From Faecalicatena contorta (GTDB taxonomy: Bacteria; Bacillota; Clostridia; Lachnospirales; Lachnospiraceae), in contig NZ_JAFBIY010000008.1 of assembly GCF_021531975.1 (NCBI RefSeq), forward strand, positions 1 through 64,000: a stretch of DNA of 64,000 nt, written 5' to 3'. Shown piece after piece: positions 11,811 through 29,915 of this stretch. The notes under the pieces were generated by a model, which was not told where the DNA came from, ran no database searches, and saw only the letters and a program-made list of their open reading frames with translations. Numbering within the stretch: the first letter of the stretch is position 1; the number at the start of each line of letters is the position of its first letter. A program made the position numbers and the translations under genes.

Positions 11811-14177
11811 ATGTACCAGGTAATGAAGAGAGACGGACAGATTGCGGATTTTAATTTATCTAAGATCAGTATTGCTATTGAAAAAGCATTTAAAGCGCAG
11901 AACAAAGAATATAATCAGGACATTATAGATTTACTTGCACTCAAGGTAACAGCAGCATTTGAGCCAAAGATCAAGAATTCTCTTATCCAGGTGGAGGATA
12001 TCCAGGACAGTGTAGAAGAGATCCTCATCAAAGCAGGATATGCGGATGTTGCAAAAGGATATATTCTGTACAGAAAGCAGAGAGAGAAGATTCGTAATCT
12101 GAAATCTACGATGCTGGATTACAAAGAGATCGTAGACAGCTATGTTAAGGTTACAGATTGGCGTGTAAAGGAAAACTCTACAGTAACTTATTCTGTCGGA
12201 GGTCTTATTTTAAGTAACTCCGGTGCGATTACAGCGAATTACTGGCTGTCTGAGATTTATGATGAAGAGATTGGTCAGGCACATAGAAATGCAGACATTC
12301 ACATTCACGATCTTTCCATGCTGACCGGATATTGTGCGGGATGGTCACTGAAGCAACTGATTCAGGAAGGACTGGGCGGTATCCCGGGAAAGATTTCTTC
12401 TTCCCCTGCAAAGCACTTAAGTGTACTTTGTAATCAGATGGTGAATTTCCTTGGAATCATGCAGAATGAGTGGGCAGGTGCACAGGCATTTTCGTCCTTT
12501 GATACTTATCTGGCTCCGTTTGTAAAAGCAGACAATCTGACATATCCGGAAGTGAAGAAGTGTATTGAATCCTTTATTTACGGTGTAAATACACCGTCTC
12601 GTTGGGGAACACAGGCACCGTTTTCCAATATCACTCTTGACTGGACAGTTCCGAATGACCTGGCAAATCTTCCTGCCATCGTAGGTGGAAAGAATCAGGA
12701 TTTCACATATGGAGACTGTAAAAAAGAGATGGATATGGTCAATAAAGCATTTATCGAGATTATGATCGAAGGTGATGCACATGGCCGTGGATTCCAGTAT
12801 CCGATTCCGACATATTCTATTACCAGTGATTTTGACTGGTCAGATACAGAGAATAACCGGTTGTTGTTTGAGATGACAGCAAAATACGGCACACCATATT
12901 TTTCAAATTACATTAACAGTGATATGGAGCCGAGCGATGTCAGAAGTATGTGCTGCCGTCTTCGTCTGGATCTTCGTGAGCTTCGTAAGAAATCCGGTGG
13001 TTTCTTCGGAAGTGGAGAAAGCACAGGATCCGTAGGTGTTGTTACGATCAACATGCCAAGAATTGCTTATCAGTCAGAAAATGAAGAAGAGTTTTTCGAG
13101 AGACTGGATAAACTGATGGATATAGCTGCACGTTCACTGCATGTAAAACGTACGGTTATTACAAAGCTTCTTGATGAAGGACTGTATCCATATACAAAAC
13201 GTTATCTTGGAACATTTAACAATCATTTTTCAACCATTGGTCTTCTTGGTATGAATGAGGCTGGTCTGAATGCAAAATGGATTGGTAAGGATATGACACA
13301 TAAAGAGACACAGGAATTCTCCAAAAAGGTTCTGAACCATATGAGAGACCGTCTTTCTTCATATCAGGAAGAGTATGGTGACTTATATAACCTTGAGGCA
13401 ACTCCGGCTGAGTCTACAACTTATCGTTTTGCAAAGCATGATAAGGAACAGTTCCCGGATATTATCACAGCCGCAGAATGTGATGGAACACCGTATTATA
13501 CCAATAGTTCACATCTTCCGGTAGGCTATACAGAAGACATTTTTGAGGCATTGGATATTCAGGATGAGCTGCAGACATTGTATACATCCGGTACCGTATT
13601 CCATGCATTCCTGGGTGAGAAGTTGCCAAGCTGGCAGTCAGCAGCATCACTTGTTCGTAAGATTGCGGAAAACTATAAGCTGCCATATTACACAATGTCA
13701 CCAACATATTCTATCTGTAAGAACCACGGTTACATTACCGGTGAGCACTATACCTGTCCGGAATGTGGTGAAACGACAGAGGTGTACAGCCGTATTACCG
13801 GTTACTATCGTCCGGTACAGAACTGGAATGATGGAAAAGCACAGGAGTTTAAGGACAGAAAAGTATACGATATCAACAGTTCCAGGCTTAAAGTGAAAGT
13901 AAAAACGGATGAACATATTGAAGAGGTTCTGAAACAGGAAGCAGAAGCCCCTAAGACACTCCTTTTTACAACAAAAACCTGTCCGAATTGCGTGATTGCA
14001 AAGAATGCACTTGATGATGCACATATGGAGTATGAGGTTATTGATGCACAGGAGAATAAGGAACTTGCAAAGAAATACGGCGTTATGCAGGCACCGACTT
14101 TGATTGTTGTCGGAGAAAATGGAGTAGAAAAGCTGGCAAATGCATCTAATATTGTAAAATATACAGAAGATAAATAA
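11811..14177 (+). CDS. nrdD: Anaerobic ribonucleoside-triphosphate reductase with C-terminal glutaredoxin-like domain
   Basis: A 788-residue class III ribonucleotide reductase. An ATP-cone occupies the first 90 residues (MYQVMKRDGQIADFNLSKI). The catalytic barrel follows, then a zinc site (CKNHGYITGEHYTCPECG, with one Cys of the usual four replaced by His) and the glycyl radical loop RITGYYRP. About 75 further residues form a glutaredoxin/thioredoxin-like domain with a CPNC redox motif (TTKTCPNCVIAK), plausibly the built-in disulfide reductant for the catalytic cysteine pair. It makes dNTPs without oxygen. NrdR boxes precede it. The usual NrdD without the fusion is about 710 residues. Confidence 0.95.
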   Translation: MYQVMKRDGQIADFNLSKISIAIEKAFKAQNKEYNQDIIDLLALKVTAAFEPKIKNSLIQVEDIQDSVEEILIKAGYADVAKGYILYRKQREKIRNLKSTMLDYKEIVDSYVKVTDWRVKENSTVTYSVGGLILSNSGAITANYWLSEIYDEEIGQAHRNADIHIHDLSMLTGYCAGWSLKQLIQEGLGGIPGKISSSPAKHLSVLCNQMVNFLGIMQNEWAGAQAFSSFDTYLAPFVKADNLTYPEVKKCIESFIYGVNTPSRWGTQAPFSNITLDWTVPNDLANLPAIVGGKNQDFTYGDCKKEMDMVNKAFIEIMIEGDAHGRGFQYPIPTYSITSDFDWSDTENNRLLFEMTAKYGTPYFSNYINSDMEPSDVRSMCCRLRLDLRELRKKSGGFFGSGESTGSVGVVTINMPRIAYQSENEEEFFERLDKLMDIAARSLHVKRTVITKLLDEGLYPYTKRYLGTFNNHFSTIGLLGMNEAGLNAKWIGKDMTHKETQEFSKKVLNHMRDRLSSYQEEYGDLYNLEATPAESTTYRFAKHDKEQFPDIITAAECDGTPYYTNSSHLPVGYTEDIFEALDIQDELQTLYTSGTVFHAFLGEKLPSWQSAASLVRKIAENYKLPYYTMSPTYSICKNHGYITGEHYTCPECGETTEVYSRITGYYRPVQNWNDGKAQEFKDRKVYDINSSRLKVKVKTDEHIEEVLKQEAEAPKTLLFTTKTCPNCVIAKNALDDAHMEYEVIDAQENKELAKKYGVMQAPTLIVVGENGVEKLANASNIVKYTEDK

Positions 14178-14178
14178 T

Positions 14179-14241
14179 GAAATCGGGGACGGGGTTTTTT
14201 CGAAAAAACCCCGTCCCCGATTTCAACTTTGCCCTGTCCCC
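14179..14241. repeat. Composite GGGGACGGGG repeat, copy C
   Basis: GAAATCGGGGACGGGG (14179-14194) is perfectly inverted as CCCCGTCCCCGATTTC (14209-14224), followed by GCCCTGTCCCC (14231-14241). Read on the minus strand this matches the order seen in copy B. It fills the whole gap between the convergent nrdD and gntR genes and may serve as a two-way terminator. Confidence 0.88.
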
Positions 14242-14247
14242 AATGGC

Positions 14248-14889
14248 CTATCTGCCTTCCAGTGCTCTGTTTTTTCCGGTTCCAAAATGATCCGATTTCA
14301 ATATTTCGTAAGATTTCTCGTAATTATTCTCCCGCATATATGCAACCATTTTTTTCAGGTTTTCATTTGTTTCCGGAATATGCATTCCGTTTTTGACGGA
14401 ATACTGTCCGATGCGGATAAACTCAGATAAATTATTTTCGTAAATTTTCTTTATACGTTCGTTATCGAAAATGCTGATAATCTCCATGTGCATGGCGGTA
14501 TCTGCGACTTCCCATTCATATACGTCGCCGGCAGCGGCGCACATGCGTACAACTTTCTCTTCAATTCGATAAGAATATTCTACATTCTTACCGGAGTCAA
14601 ATATAAGCTCAAATGCGGCTCTCTCCAAAAGTTCCCGAAGCTGATAGATTTCGGTGATATCTTTATCGGTAATCTCCCTTACAGTCATAGACTTGTAATA
14701 GTCTGAGACAATCAGTCCTTCGGCTTGCAGCATCTGAATGGCGCTGCGTACCGGACTGCGGCTCATTCCCAGCTCGGCAGTGAGCATTGCTTCTGTAAGC
14801 GGCATGCCGGGTGGGTAAGTAAGGTTTAAAATATTATGTTTAATTTTTTCATATGCCTGATTCGCAAGGGATGTTACTTTTTCCGCCAT
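14248..14889 (-). CDS. GntR family regulator, FCD subfamily
   Basis: A 213-residue regulator with an N-terminal winged helix (LTEAMLTAELGMSRSPVRSAIQMLQAEGLI, about residues 31-60, split here as the recognition region). A helical FCD ligand-binding domain follows, with probable metal-binding D and H residues in VADTAMHMEI and near the C-terminal SDHF. It is the second gene of an operon with proC, nine bases upstream. Two TTGTATACA-type sites overlap the operon's transcription start, the usual operator style for this subfamily, so autorepression together with proC is likely. A role in hydroxyproline or proline metabolism is inference from position. Confidence 0.88.
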   Translation of the reverse strand: MAEKVTSLANQAYEKIKHNILNLTYPPGMPLTEAMLTAELGMSRSPVRSAIQMLQAEGLIVSDYYKSMTVREITDKDITEIYQLRELLERAAFELIFDSGKNVEYSYRIEEKVVRMCAAAGDVYEWEVADTAMHMEIISIFDNERIKKIYENNLSEFIRIGQYSVKNGMHIPETNENLKKMVAYMRENNYEKSYEILKSDHFGTGKNRALEGR

Positions 14890-26333: not shown

Positions 26334-27446
26334 ATGACAAAAGTGGACATTATTTCCGGATTCCTTGGAGCGGGAAAGACTACCTTTATCAAATTGCTGA
26401 TCGATAAGGTGTTTGCCGGAGAGAAGCTTGTACTGATTGAAAATGAGTTTGGCGAAATCGGAATTGACGGTGGTTTTCTTAAGGATGCGGGAATTGAGAT
26501 TACAGAGATGAATTCCGGATGCATTTGTTGTACTCTGGTAGGAGATTTCAGTAAGGCGCTTCAGAAAGTGCTTGAGGAATATAAGCCGGATCGTGTATTG
26601 ATTGAGCCTTCAGGAGTCGGAAAGCTGTCTGATGTTGCAAAGGCAATCGAAGACGTAAAAATAAATGCGGATATAGAAATAGAGGGAAGAATTACGGTTG
26701 TTGATGGAAAGAAAGCGAAGATGTATCTGAGAAATTTTGGAGAATTCTTTAAAAATCAGGTCGAACATGCATCTACAATTGTTATCAGCCGTACACAGAT
26801 GATGAAAGATGATAAGATTGAGGAATGTGTACATCTTCTCAGAGAAGAAAATGAAGAGGCAGCGATAATTTCTACTCCGTGGGAAGAGTTGAGTAAAGAG
26901 GCTGTTCTTCATGCTTTAGAGCAGGGATCAGAACTGGAGGAGCTTTTGGAGCATCATGGCCACGAACATGAACATCATCATGACGGTTGTTGCGATCACG
27001 AACATGAACATGAACATCATCATCATGACTGTTGTTGCGACCACGAACATGAACACCATCATGATGACTGTTGTTGTCACGATCACCATGACCACGGCCA
27101 CCATGACCACGGCCACCACGACCACGACCATCATGATCACGATCACCATGAGCATCATCACCATGCGGATGATGTGTTTACAAGCTGGGGAAAAGAGACC
27201 GCGCATAAATACACAAAGGAAGAGCTTGACTTTATCGTAAAAGCATTATCAGCAGCAGAAGGTTATGGAACAGTCCTTCGTGCAAAGGGTATCATTGCCA
27301 TGGCAGATGGTGGATGGAAACAGTTTGATCTTGTGCCGGAAGAATATGAGATAAGAGATTGTCAGGCTGACTATACCGGCCGGGTTTGTGTTATTGGAAC
27401 TGATCTTAATGAAGCAGAACTTTTGAAATTATTCCATATTCAGTAA
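26334..27446 (+). CDS. CobW/COG0523 family GTPase metallochaperone with His/Cys-rich tract
   Basis: A 370-residue G3E GTPase. Walker A GFLGAGKTT is at residues 9-17, the metal-binding GCICC (C63, C65, C66) follows strand 2, and IEPSG is at 90-94. The NKxD-equivalent reads SRTQ and is atypical. Residues about 207-277 are almost only His, Asp and Glu with CC/CCC clusters, likely a metal store or sensor. A CobW C-terminal domain follows. Members deliver Zn, Co, Fe or other metals; the metal here is not known. Its DNA in this tract consists of near-repeats of GAACATGAACATCATCAT. The second CobW gene starts 12 bases later. Confidence 0.88.
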   Translation: MTKVDIISGFLGAGKTTFIKLLIDKVFAGEKLVLIENEFGEIGIDGGFLKDAGIEITEMNSGCICCTLVGDFSKALQKVLEEYKPDRVLIEPSGVGKLSDVAKAIEDVKINADIEIEGRITVVDGKKAKMYLRNFGEFFKNQVEHASTIVISRTQMMKDDKIEECVHLLREENEEAAIISTPWEELSKEAVLHALEQGSELEELLEHHGHEHEHHHDGCCDHEHEHEHHHHDCCCDHEHEHHHDDCCCHDHHDHGHHDHGHHDHDHHDHDHHEHHHHADDVFTSWGKETAHKYTKEELDFIVKALSAAEGYGTVLRAKGIIAMADGGWKQFDLVPEEYEIRDCQADYTGRVCVIGTDLNEAELLKLFHIQ

Positions 27447-27458
27447 GAAGGTGATGAG

Positions 27459-28400
27459 ATGGTAACGCCAGTATTTATTTGTACAGGATTTCTGGACAGT
27501 GGAAAAACAACGCTTGTCAAAGACACACTGATGGAACAGGAATGGATAGAACCGGGACTTACGCTTCTTATTGTCTGCGAAGAAGGCGAGGAAGAGTATT
27601 CAGAAGAATATCTGAAACGTAAGAATATGGCACTTTTAAATATTGAGGAGCCGGAGCAGCTAAATGCTACATTTTTCAAAAACTGTGAGAAAAACTATCA
27701 TCCGACACAGGTTGTGATTGAGTACAACGGTATGTGGAAACTGCAGGATCTGCTGATGATAAAATATCCGAGAAATTGGCAGCTCCAGGGTGTTTATTCT
27801 ACTGTAAATGGAATGACGGTGGATATGTATCTGAAGAATATGAGAAATGTTCTGATGGAGCAGCTTACGGAATCGGAGCTTATCGTTGTAAACAGATGCC
27901 CGGCAGAAACAGATCGCTCTGGGTTCCGACGTGCTCTGAAGGTGCAGAATCCGATGGCACAGCTGATATTTGAAGGAACGGACGGGAAAATCATACAGCC
28001 GTCTGCGGAAGATCTGCCATATGATGTGAAAACTGATCCGATCGTGATTGATGATATGGATTTCGGAATATGGTATGTAGATGCATATGATCATCCGGAT
28101 ATTTATCTTCACAAAGAAATAGAATTTGTTGCTCAGGCCTTTCGCCCGAAAGGAATGGGAAAGGATATGTTCGTTCCGGTGCGTAAAATTATGACATGCT
28201 GTGCAGATGACATACGTTTCTATGGCTATCCGTGTAAGGTGGGTAAGAATATAGATATCCCGATGAAAAAATGGGTAAAGATTCGGGCAAGATTTGAGTT
28301 TGAGTCTGTTACTTCATTCGGAAATGAACAACCGGTACTTTATCTGACACATATGGAGGCCGCTCAGAAACCAGCAGAAGAAGTAGTATATTTGGGATAA
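27459..28400 (+). CDS. Second CobW-like GTPase, atypical, with a YcgQ/DUF1980-like tail
   Basis: A 313-residue protein. Its N-terminal half is CobW-like with Walker A GFLDSGKTT (residues 10-18). The CxCC metal motif is absent and the usual IEPSG position reads IEYNG. The C-terminal part (about residues 215-310, FRPKGMGKDMFVPVRK then TCCADDIRFYGYPC) resembles, from memory, the C-terminal domain of YcgQ/TIGR03943 proteins linked to metal homeostasis. It is co-transcribed with the upstream CobW gene. The role is probably in the same metal pathway; this is inferred. Its stop is two bases before a large palindromic region. Confidence 0.75.
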   Translation: MVTPVFICTGFLDSGKTTLVKDTLMEQEWIEPGLTLLIVCEEGEEEYSEEYLKRKNMALLNIEEPEQLNATFFKNCEKNYHPTQVVIEYNGMWKLQDLLMIKYPRNWQLQGVYSTVNGMTVDMYLKNMRNVLMEQLTESELIVVNRCPAETDRSGFRRALKVQNPMAQLIFEGTDGKIIQPSAEDLPYDVKTDPIVIDDMDFGIWYVDAYDHPDIYLHKEIEFVAQAFRPKGMGKDMFVPVRKIMTCCADDIRFYGYPCKVGKNIDIPMKKWVKIRARFEFESVTSFGNEQPVLYLTHMEAAQKPAEEVVYLG

Positions 28401-28402
28401 CT

Positions 28403-28627
28403 GGAAATTTAGTGTAGTAAGGGATACGCAGTATCGGCAGGAGAAAGTGCCTCGACGCATTCGCCCCTGCAACTAGCCCACGAATCTATAAGAGCGCGAA
28501 AATCAGACGATAAATCAACGCCTGTTTTTCGCGCTCTAACAGTTTCGGGGCGGATTTTCCGGGGCTCTTGCTTACCTCATCACTTTCTCCTGCCGATGCT
28601 GCTGCCATTTACTACACCGTAAATTTC
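28403..28627. repeat. Nested palindrome 1 (about 225 bp), probable mobile or structured RNA element
   Basis: Three paired layers are visible. The outer layer is GGAAATTTAGTGTAGTAA (28403-28420) against TTACTACACCGTAAATTTC (28609-28627). The middle layer is GTATCGGCAGGAGAAAGTG (28431-28449) against CACTTTCTCCTGCCGATGC (28581-28599), 18 of 19 paired. The inner layer is AGAGCGCGAAAA (28491-28502) against TTTTCGCGCTCT (28526-28537). CGCCCC near 28462 also pairs with GGGGCG at 28547. No credible open frame is present. It could be a MITE-like element or a structured non-coding RNA. Confidence 0.8.
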
Positions 28628-28870
28628 TGGGTAAAAGATGTATGCCATAGTTTGTTGGAAAAACAAGTACCTGATTGTAGGTTTTCATTACATATTTGCA
28701 AAAGCAAAGAATTGTAATGACTTTTTAATTGTTAAAATCATCTCCCGGGAAAGATATTGAGGAATTCGAATGAATTTAGAAGAGGAAAACTCATTCCCTG
28801 ACAAAAAAAGTCATCAATTTGAATGAAATGTTACTACAACTGAAGTCCGTCGCCTGCACATTCTACCCCG
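28628..28870. other. Non-coding spacer between the two palindromes
   Basis: AT-rich and without a supported gene. A local hairpin is visible near 28687-28720 (CATTAC...TTGC-AAAA-GCAA...GTAATG followed by CTTTTT), which could terminate transcription. AATTGTAATGACTTTTT and the later AAAAAAAGTCATCAATT (about 28804-28820) are again roughly inverted, so this part may belong to the same larger folded element. Confidence 0.45.
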
Positions 28871-29193
28871 AAATTGTAGTGTAAAGATTTGAGGTGTTAA
28901 AAGAACAGGCTGTAAGAAGAGAAACCTGGTGCTTTGTTTCCGTAGAAGAGTGATACAATCCGTTGCTGAAAAAGGACAAAATATACAGACCGAGTCTTGT
29001 ACTTCGGGTACAAGGCGAGAAGATAGCTGAACGGATGAACTCATGAGGAGTTCTCCGTGAATCTATCTGGTGTCTGTTATATTTTGTCCTTTTAAAGTTA
29101 TGGATTGTAAACGACTGGTCAGGAAACAAAGCATCAGGTTACCTTTCTTACAACCGTCCTTTTTTATACCTTAAACTTCTACACTAAATTTCC
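28871..29193. repeat. Nested palindrome 2 (about 320 bp) reaching into the nagB stop codon
   Basis: An imperfect long hairpin with arms of over 100 bases. TAGTGTA (28877-28883) through GGTGCTTTGTTTCC pairs with GGAAACAAAGCATC through CTACACTA (to 29186). TACAATCC plus AAAAAGGACAAAATATA further in pairs with TATATTTTGTCCTTTT plus GGATTGTA. The tip holds CTTGTAC-TTCGG-GTACAAG (28996-29014) and an ACGGATGAACTC/GAGTTCTCCGT hairpin. The outer end CTACACTAAATTTCC (29179-29193) exactly inverts 28403-28417. Short minus-strand frames inside have no coding features. Confidence 0.8.
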
Positions 29194-29915
29194 ACTTTAC
29201 TTAATGCAGCTTCGTCTGCAACGATTGTTACATCATTATGTAACTGCAGGATGGATGCAGGTACCTGTGGTGTGATCGGGCCGGAGATAACTTCTTTTAA
29301 GATTTCTGATTTATCCTCGCCACTTACGACTACAACAATTTTCTTTGCCTGCATGATGTTCTTTGTGCCCATGGTATATGCCTGATGTGGAACGTCGGCC
29401 TCGGAAGCGAAGAAACGTGTATTTGCTTCGATTGTGCGTGGTGTCAGATCTACGCAGTGTGTTTCTTTTGCGAAGCAGTCGTCTGGTTCATTGAATCCGA
29501 TATGTCCATTGTGACCGAGACCAAGAAGCTGTAAGTCGATACCGCCGGATGCAGCAATAATCGCATTGTAGTCATCGCATGCTTTCTGTGAATCTGGTTC
29601 CAGACCATCCGGAACAAAAGTACGTGTTTTGTCGATGTTAATGTGGTTAAACAGATTATGATTCATAAAATAACGATAGCTCTGGTCATTTTCAGGACTC
29701 AGTCCCTTATATTCGTCCAGGTTTACACTTGTTACTGCTGAAAAATCAAGATCGCCGTTTTCATATCCCTCAATGAGTCTTTTGTAGGTCCCAATTGGTG
29801 AAGAACCGGTCGCAAGTCCGAGTACACAGTCTGGTTTCATAATAACCTGTGCTGCGATAATGTTTGCCGCTTTACGGCTCATGTCTTCATAGTCTTTTGC
29901 TTTAACGATAATCAT
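29184..29915 (-). CDS. nagB: Glucosamine-6-phosphate deaminase
   Basis: A 243-residue enzyme that converts glucosamine-6-phosphate to fructose-6-phosphate and ammonia, the last step of amino-sugar catabolism. GLATGSSPIGTYK binds phosphate, VNLDEYKGL holds the base-side Asp, and GLGHNGHIGFNEP holds the catalytic loop. Length fits the short Firmicute NagB type. A GAAAGGA site precedes the ATG. Its stop codon TAG lies inside the end of the neighbouring palindromic element. It is divergent from nagA. Confidence 0.95.
   Translation of the reverse strand: MIIVKAKDYEDMSRKAANIIAAQVIMKPDCVLGLATGSSPIGTYKRLIEGYENGDLDFSAVTSVNLDEYKGLSPENDQSYRYFMNHNLFNHINIDKTRTFVPDGLEPDSQKACDDYNAIIAASGGIDLQLLGLGHNGHIGFNEPDDCFAKETHCVDLTPRTIEANTRFFASEADVPHQAYTMGTKNIMQAKKIVVVVSGEDKSEILKEVISGPITPQVPASILQLHNDVTIVADEAALSKVEI

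Follow-up and report, generated by a model that had tools for sequence, protein, structure and literature searches.

The unit at positions 28402 to 29194 of the window, the 64,000-nucleotide stretch of Faecalicatena contorta DNA analysed here, is probably best explained as a member of a dispersed family of non-autonomous mobile composite foldback elements that replace short intergenic DNA. The family is multicopy and mosaic and has defined ends, and both the fit to gene ends and the association with genes for Rpn nucleases were observed in two genera; the first-pass annotation of the sequence had anticipated neither. The element is real, multicopy and composite, and was very probably mobile in the past, mobility being the firm part of this explanation.

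Architecture of the unit

The unit consists of terminal inverted repeats around two long, different foldback hairpins and a spacer, and the genes on either side of it are convergent. From the left, it comprises a terminal inverted repeat, TGGAAATTTAGTGTAG (28402 to 28417, no strand assigned), recognized by arm comparison and the end pattern; hairpin A, of subtype A1 (28402 to 28630, plus strand, about 229 bp); spacer S, of type S1 (28631 to 28861, plus strand, 231 bp), which is common to other copies and in some of them is absent, shortened or inverted; hairpin B, of subtype B1 (28862 to 29194, plus strand, about 333 bp); and a right terminal inverted repeat (29179 to 29194, no strand assigned), which is the inverse of the left one and contains the stop codon of nagB. 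A 15-bp inverted repeat claimed in the first-pass annotation was present and exact, with GGAAATTTAGTGTAG at 28403 to 28417 and its exact reverse complement at 29179 to 29193, and the outer arms reached 19 nt at 95% complementarity (28399 to 28417 with 29179 to 29197). Two further "related ends" (28609 to 28627 and 28871 to 28886) proved to be inner feet, each belonging to one of two distinct long hairpins. The proposal of two adjacent MITE-like elements of one family was dropped, since A and B are different hairpins, although their feet are alike.

The sequence from 28400 to 28632 folded at -117.8 kcal/mol (z -11.4, with none of 200 shuffles as good), and that from 28862 to 29200 at -151.8 kcal/mol (z -15.1, none of 100 shuffles as good). 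Both hairpins were also supported by their genome copies, and hairpin A by covariation. The gap is gene-free, as had been claimed: among ORFs of at least 60 aa, the unit held only mechanical ones of 76 and 88 aa, both in the B half and neither gene-sized, and it contained no transposase. The left flanking gene (27459 to 28400, plus strand) is an ORF of 313 aa with homologues in relatives, and its TAA at 28398 to 28400 is followed by one base and then by the TG of the element. The right flanking gene (29184 to 29915, minus strand), which we take to be nagB on the basis of the first-pass annotation and general knowledge, has its terminal V-E-I-stop encoded by the repeat. Further to the left, a gene at 26334 to 27446 adjoins the 313-aa gene and carries a long stretch rich in His, Asp and Cys; by eye, the two resemble a metal-handling GTPase pair.

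Conserved core of hairpin A and its distribution

Hairpin A contains a conserved core, which is asymmetric and has covarying stems. When 26 A cores were aligned (24 from the same genome and 2 from another, G162), invariant blocks appeared around variable stems, and 23 of 38 predicted pairs showed changes on both sides. The 5′ side of the core, CACGAATCTATAAGAG (28479 to 28494, plus strand), consisted mostly of invariant columns, and the 3′ side, CTCTAACAGTTTCGG (28534 to 28548, plus strand), was taken from the same alignment. Pairs supported by both strands comprised 1549 Watson-Crick, 7 GT, 19 AC and 9 other cells in hairpin A, and 678 Watson-Crick, 12 GT, 3 AC and 12 other cells in hairpin B. 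Since A has no GT excess, it gives no sign of selection on a plus-strand RNA; hairpin B, whose plus strand has more GT than AC, may be under such selection. No family of Rfam 15 reached gathering score in the element, the sole match above that score being an FMN riboswitch elsewhere, in locus L301, and the A core is thus a conserved structure without an Rfam family at gathering score.

These data bear on the idea that the unit is a domesticated bidirectional terminator or a structured RNA and not a mobile element, which we consider improbable. The strong conserved structure, the place between convergent genes from which other intergenic DNA is gone, and the GT and AC counts of B would agree with it, but the counts in A point the other way, no Rfam family was matched, a simple scan of 28350 to 29250 found no terminator-like site, and the copies are many and mosaic. 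A terminator role is in any case compatible with mobility, and the two can coexist.

The exact A-core pattern occurred 39 times in the same genome, twice in G162, and in none of the other 395 of 397 genomes of the bacterial family. A covariance model of the A core, with scoring limited to 8 candidates per genome, matched 8 of the 397 at E ≤ 0.01, the match in G334 being weak. The whole unit, used as a DNA query against 299 of the family genomes, gave only weak local matches in 6 others; reading some of these revealed A cores in G162 and, in G230, fragments of the B core. In G383, which belongs to a second genus, the order of the unit is A, spacer and inverted A-like hairpin. As separate observations, the inverted A hairpin at G383 loci L306 and L317 is shortened by tip loss, like several copies in the F. 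contorta genome, and G230 (L069 1001 to 1588 and L302) has further long palindromes, some with a B-like and some with an A-like core. Among open-licence papers, no title described such an element. Carriage by phage or plasmid was rejected, because the 793-bp unit had no match in either collection; four exact matches to the core 16-mer in viral contigs were judged to be chance, none of them having the other half of the hairpin after it.

Copies, mosaics and ends

Searching examined stretches of the genome by blastn with modules cut from copies, we identified 48 module clusters, 16 at contig ends and 32 elsewhere. The first-pass annotation had named several copies with clean ends as support for mobility, and these were found at many unrelated loci; it had also held that a single copy, always beside nagB, would argue against a mobile element, whereas unrelated loci are occupied and, in three relatives, this convergent pair is separated by other, short gaps. 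The contig C34 starts inside a B module, and at least 17 of the 68 contig ends of the genome fall within elements. Contig ends inside elements mean that draft assemblies break there and that copies are undercounted.

The 32 clusters away from contig ends comprised 22 of A..B make-up, 4 of A..inverted A, 2 of A..C and 4 partial ones, and fairly complete units measured about 0.54 to 0.86 kb, with hairpins of 210 to 340 bp. A composite element had been proposed earlier, and the units are indeed mosaics of A, S, B and C modules. Subtypes A1 to A4, S1, S2, B1, B1b, B2, B3 and C occurred in many combinations, which suggests, from the sequences compared, that copies have recombined with one another. 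Hairpin-tip deletions were of five junction types, and just one of them, C2:6590, coincides with a base pair exactly; as a sign of extrusion of the DNA, this is only a hint.

The terminal inverted repeats of the family read TGGAAATTTAGTRTAG or TAGGAATTTAGTATAG, with close variants; GTAG is found within the sf1 repeat, and TA is frequent at subfamily 2 ends. The end pattern GGAAN{0,1}TTTAGTNNAG had 44 matches in the genome, compared to 1 for the reversed control. In A..B units the outermost ends are more alike than the inner feet, so that the whole composite looks like the unit. Target duplications, for which a search had been recommended, were not seen: comparison by eye of the flanks of both subfamilies showed no consistent direct repeat. 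Around the 44 matches, as far as the loci reach, no copy was found that was longer and carried a gene inside such ends.

Bacterial MITEs such as Correia/NEMIS, RUP and ERIC/IRU are likewise short, non-coding and intergenic, with terminal inverted repeats, and part of one account (PMC2229807) describes stop codons in several of their frames. The element differs from them in having two different hairpin modules per unit, in the absence of a visible target duplication, and in its fit to both neighbouring genes. One could suppose a MITE family that is bounded by terminal inverted repeats and was cross-mobilized by a DDE transposase of the ordinary kind, which the genome has since lost or the assembly lacks. 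We consider this unlikely: the repeats, the multicopy non-coding units and the frequent TA of subfamily 2 would be expected of such a family, but a consistent target duplication and a gene-carrying copy are what the comparisons described above failed to reveal.

REP, BIME and REPIN sequences, which are associated with RAYT, are also multicopy palindromes with inverted mosaic pairing, placed at gene 3′ ends and having ends that supply stops, according to sections of PMC3733652 and PMC2817692. In contrast to the 20 to 40 bp palindromes and the GTAG or CGTC tag at one end described for REP in sections of PMC3733652, the element has hairpins of several times that length, and by size and tag it falls outside that class; it also has outer terminal inverted repeats and a conserved asymmetric core, and accompanies Rpn rather than RAYT genes. 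The genome does contain three Y1_Tnp matches, two of them in long RAYT-like frames of 311 and 261 aa, and BIMEs are mosaics of inverted palindromes whose REP ends can supply stops (sections of PMC3733652 and PMC2817692), as would suit a REP/BIME system of exceptional size, with A and B as giant REPs and a RAYT (Y1) transposase as the enzyme that moves them. We think this very improbable, however, given that the two long Y1 genes have palindromes of a different kind beside them (GGGACGTAG, GGGGACGGGG) and no A, S or B module nearby, and that the units have symmetric outer ends and 15 times the length of a REP. A short Y1 transposase of IS200 size was also seen at C3:2808-3170, near a contig starting in a B module. 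Another convergent gap of the window (14177 to 14248) holds a GGGGACGGGG...CCCCGTCCCC palindrome that starts directly after the left stop codon, and this palindrome type also occurs beside the RAYT-like gene at C11:62.5k.

Fit of the element to gene ends

The ends of the element lie close to stop codons. We counted distinct ends with a recognizable terminal repeat in the examined loci, excluding degenerate or missing ends, so that the resulting 64 are fewer than all ends, and the gene facing each end was decided by a codon model trained on 25 long ORFs of the window. Of these 64 ends, 50 faced a gene 3′ end, 10 a 5′ end and 4 were ambiguous. Of the 50 3′-facing ends, all but L008, whose stop is at +175, had a stop codon within -24 to +6 bp of the repeat (49 ends). 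The stop overlapped the repeat in 30 ends, nagB included, and lay 1 to 6 bp from it in 19; for 17 of the 30 overlapping stops the position was -1, where the repeat completes the stop with its first G or A. At two 5′-facing ends, a -35-like box begins 2 to 3 bp from the element, as judged by eye without statistics.

Similarly, in G383 a stop was found at -15 to +9 in 14 of 17 distinct ends, 7 of them at +1; one of the remaining 3 had its stop at +123 and two had no inbound ORF. This count came from 11 loci, which were best model matches, rpn neighbours and sample windows and not a random draw; L326, L330, L333 and L334 were excluded as repeats of other loci, and L344 yielded no end because its TAGGAGTTTAAG-like repeat is outside the core pattern used. 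Stop-flush ends have a precedent, since REP ends are reported, in sections of PMC3733652, to supply stop codons to neighbours. The unusual part seems to be the two-sided fit of a large unit to both neighbours, and a mobile element so closely fitted to stop codons on both sides would represent an unusual target rule.

Proposed replacement of intergenic DNA

We inspected 32 close relatives of the left gene, 9 of which had nagB in the locus and 3 had it directly adjacent and convergent. The gaps in these three are 99, 55 and 83 bp, compared to 783 bp here; by eye, terminator hairpins are recognizable in two of them and GGGGACGGGG palindromes in the third. Since the gaps of the relatives are short and ordinary, and only the element is left here, replacement of intergenic DNA is the simplest reading, resting on one gene pair in distant relatives. 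On the other hand, of 7 convergent pairs defined from ORFs in the window, 3 overlap or are separated by at most 10 bp, so the ancestral gap may have been tiny, and insertion into already compact gaps is possible. In a comparison set with one genome of the same genus, neither aspS/pckA nor thrC/ABC-F, the neighbours of two units, were adjacent in any of the 29 relatives compared for each pair, and they gave no empty site; replacement is therefore not established at these two units.

Association with rpn genes

Genes of the rpn family are widespread, are linked to phage defence and are often annotated as transposases. The 3′ end of an intact PF04754 gene (8.9e-24) abuts one element, and a search of the genome with that protein gave 13 matches, which grouped into 7 loci. 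The element adjoins rpn at 6 of these 7, at the 3′ end (C11:171.9k, C25, C9 and C11:432k) or on the 5′ side (C19, C25 and C34), with none at C3; comparison of the upstream regions showed that rpn homology starts about 290 bp before the gene, with the element just outside. G383 has four TIGR01784 matches, three above the cut-off, and the core model found the element at all four, with rpn sitting between element sequences at L331 and L333. In a third genus, G162 has one weak TIGR01784 match, below the cut-off, and no A-core match in its locus. Thus, in two genera together, the element adjoins rpn at 10 of 11 loci, and the Rpn genes (YhgA-like, PF04754 / PF12784) share with it this adjoining position and a multicopy state. 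As a control for density, 20 windows of 20 kb in G383 (400 kb) gave 4 matches at 3 places, compared to which rpn loci appear enriched for the element. The Rpn subfamilies differ between the two genomes, and the majority of units do not adjoin rpn.

The association as such is silent on which of rpn and the element moves the other. The strongest alternative to an enzymatic link is that recombining copies of the element trap rpn, or that both accumulate at tolerant sites, and we give this reading a substantial chance, somewhat below even. The majority of rpn copies in the F. contorta genome are broken, elements adjoin core genes too, and rpn is enclosed by a pair of elements at C25 and at G383 L331 and L333, as recombination between copies would give; against this stands the recurrence in two genera (10 of 11 loci), with different Rpn subfamilies, against a low density of the element.

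Proposed mechanism and implications

The units, being non-autonomous, would be spread by an enzyme acting in trans. Their hairpins may extrude as DNA, a nuclease would open DNA near gene ends, and the unit would then be joined or copied into the opened DNA. An arriving unit would displace short intergenic DNA and, between convergent genes, the native terminator with it; its hairpins would then form the 3′ border of both genes, and survivors would be expected only where both neighbouring genes still work. Sections of one study (PMC5350276) tie the Rpn nuclease family to RecA-independent recombination and describe RpnA of E. coli as a nonspecific endonuclease that raises such recombination. Judged from the genomic association, Rpn leads among the candidates for this nuclease, but it is a candidate only and more probably wrong than right. 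It is rather unlikely, though conceivable, that Rpn PD-(D/E)XK nucleases and the foldback elements form one new kind of mobile system, in which Rpn breaks would lead to hairpin-for-hairpin replacement of terminators, stopping at stop codons and -35 boxes, with rpn travelling between two elements. The element would otherwise be a variation on REP, BIME and MITE sequences, a Rpn-driven system being the less likely of the two.

In sections of a 2023 preprint (PMC10327210), rpn genes are described as being without flanking inverted terminal repeats and as unlikely transposases, and as probably moving by recombination or hitch-hiking. We believe that the clustering of the element at rpn is a concrete lead on how rpn genes might move; with 10 of 11 rpn loci next to members of a repeat family whose ends are defined, the question of their movement becomes testable.
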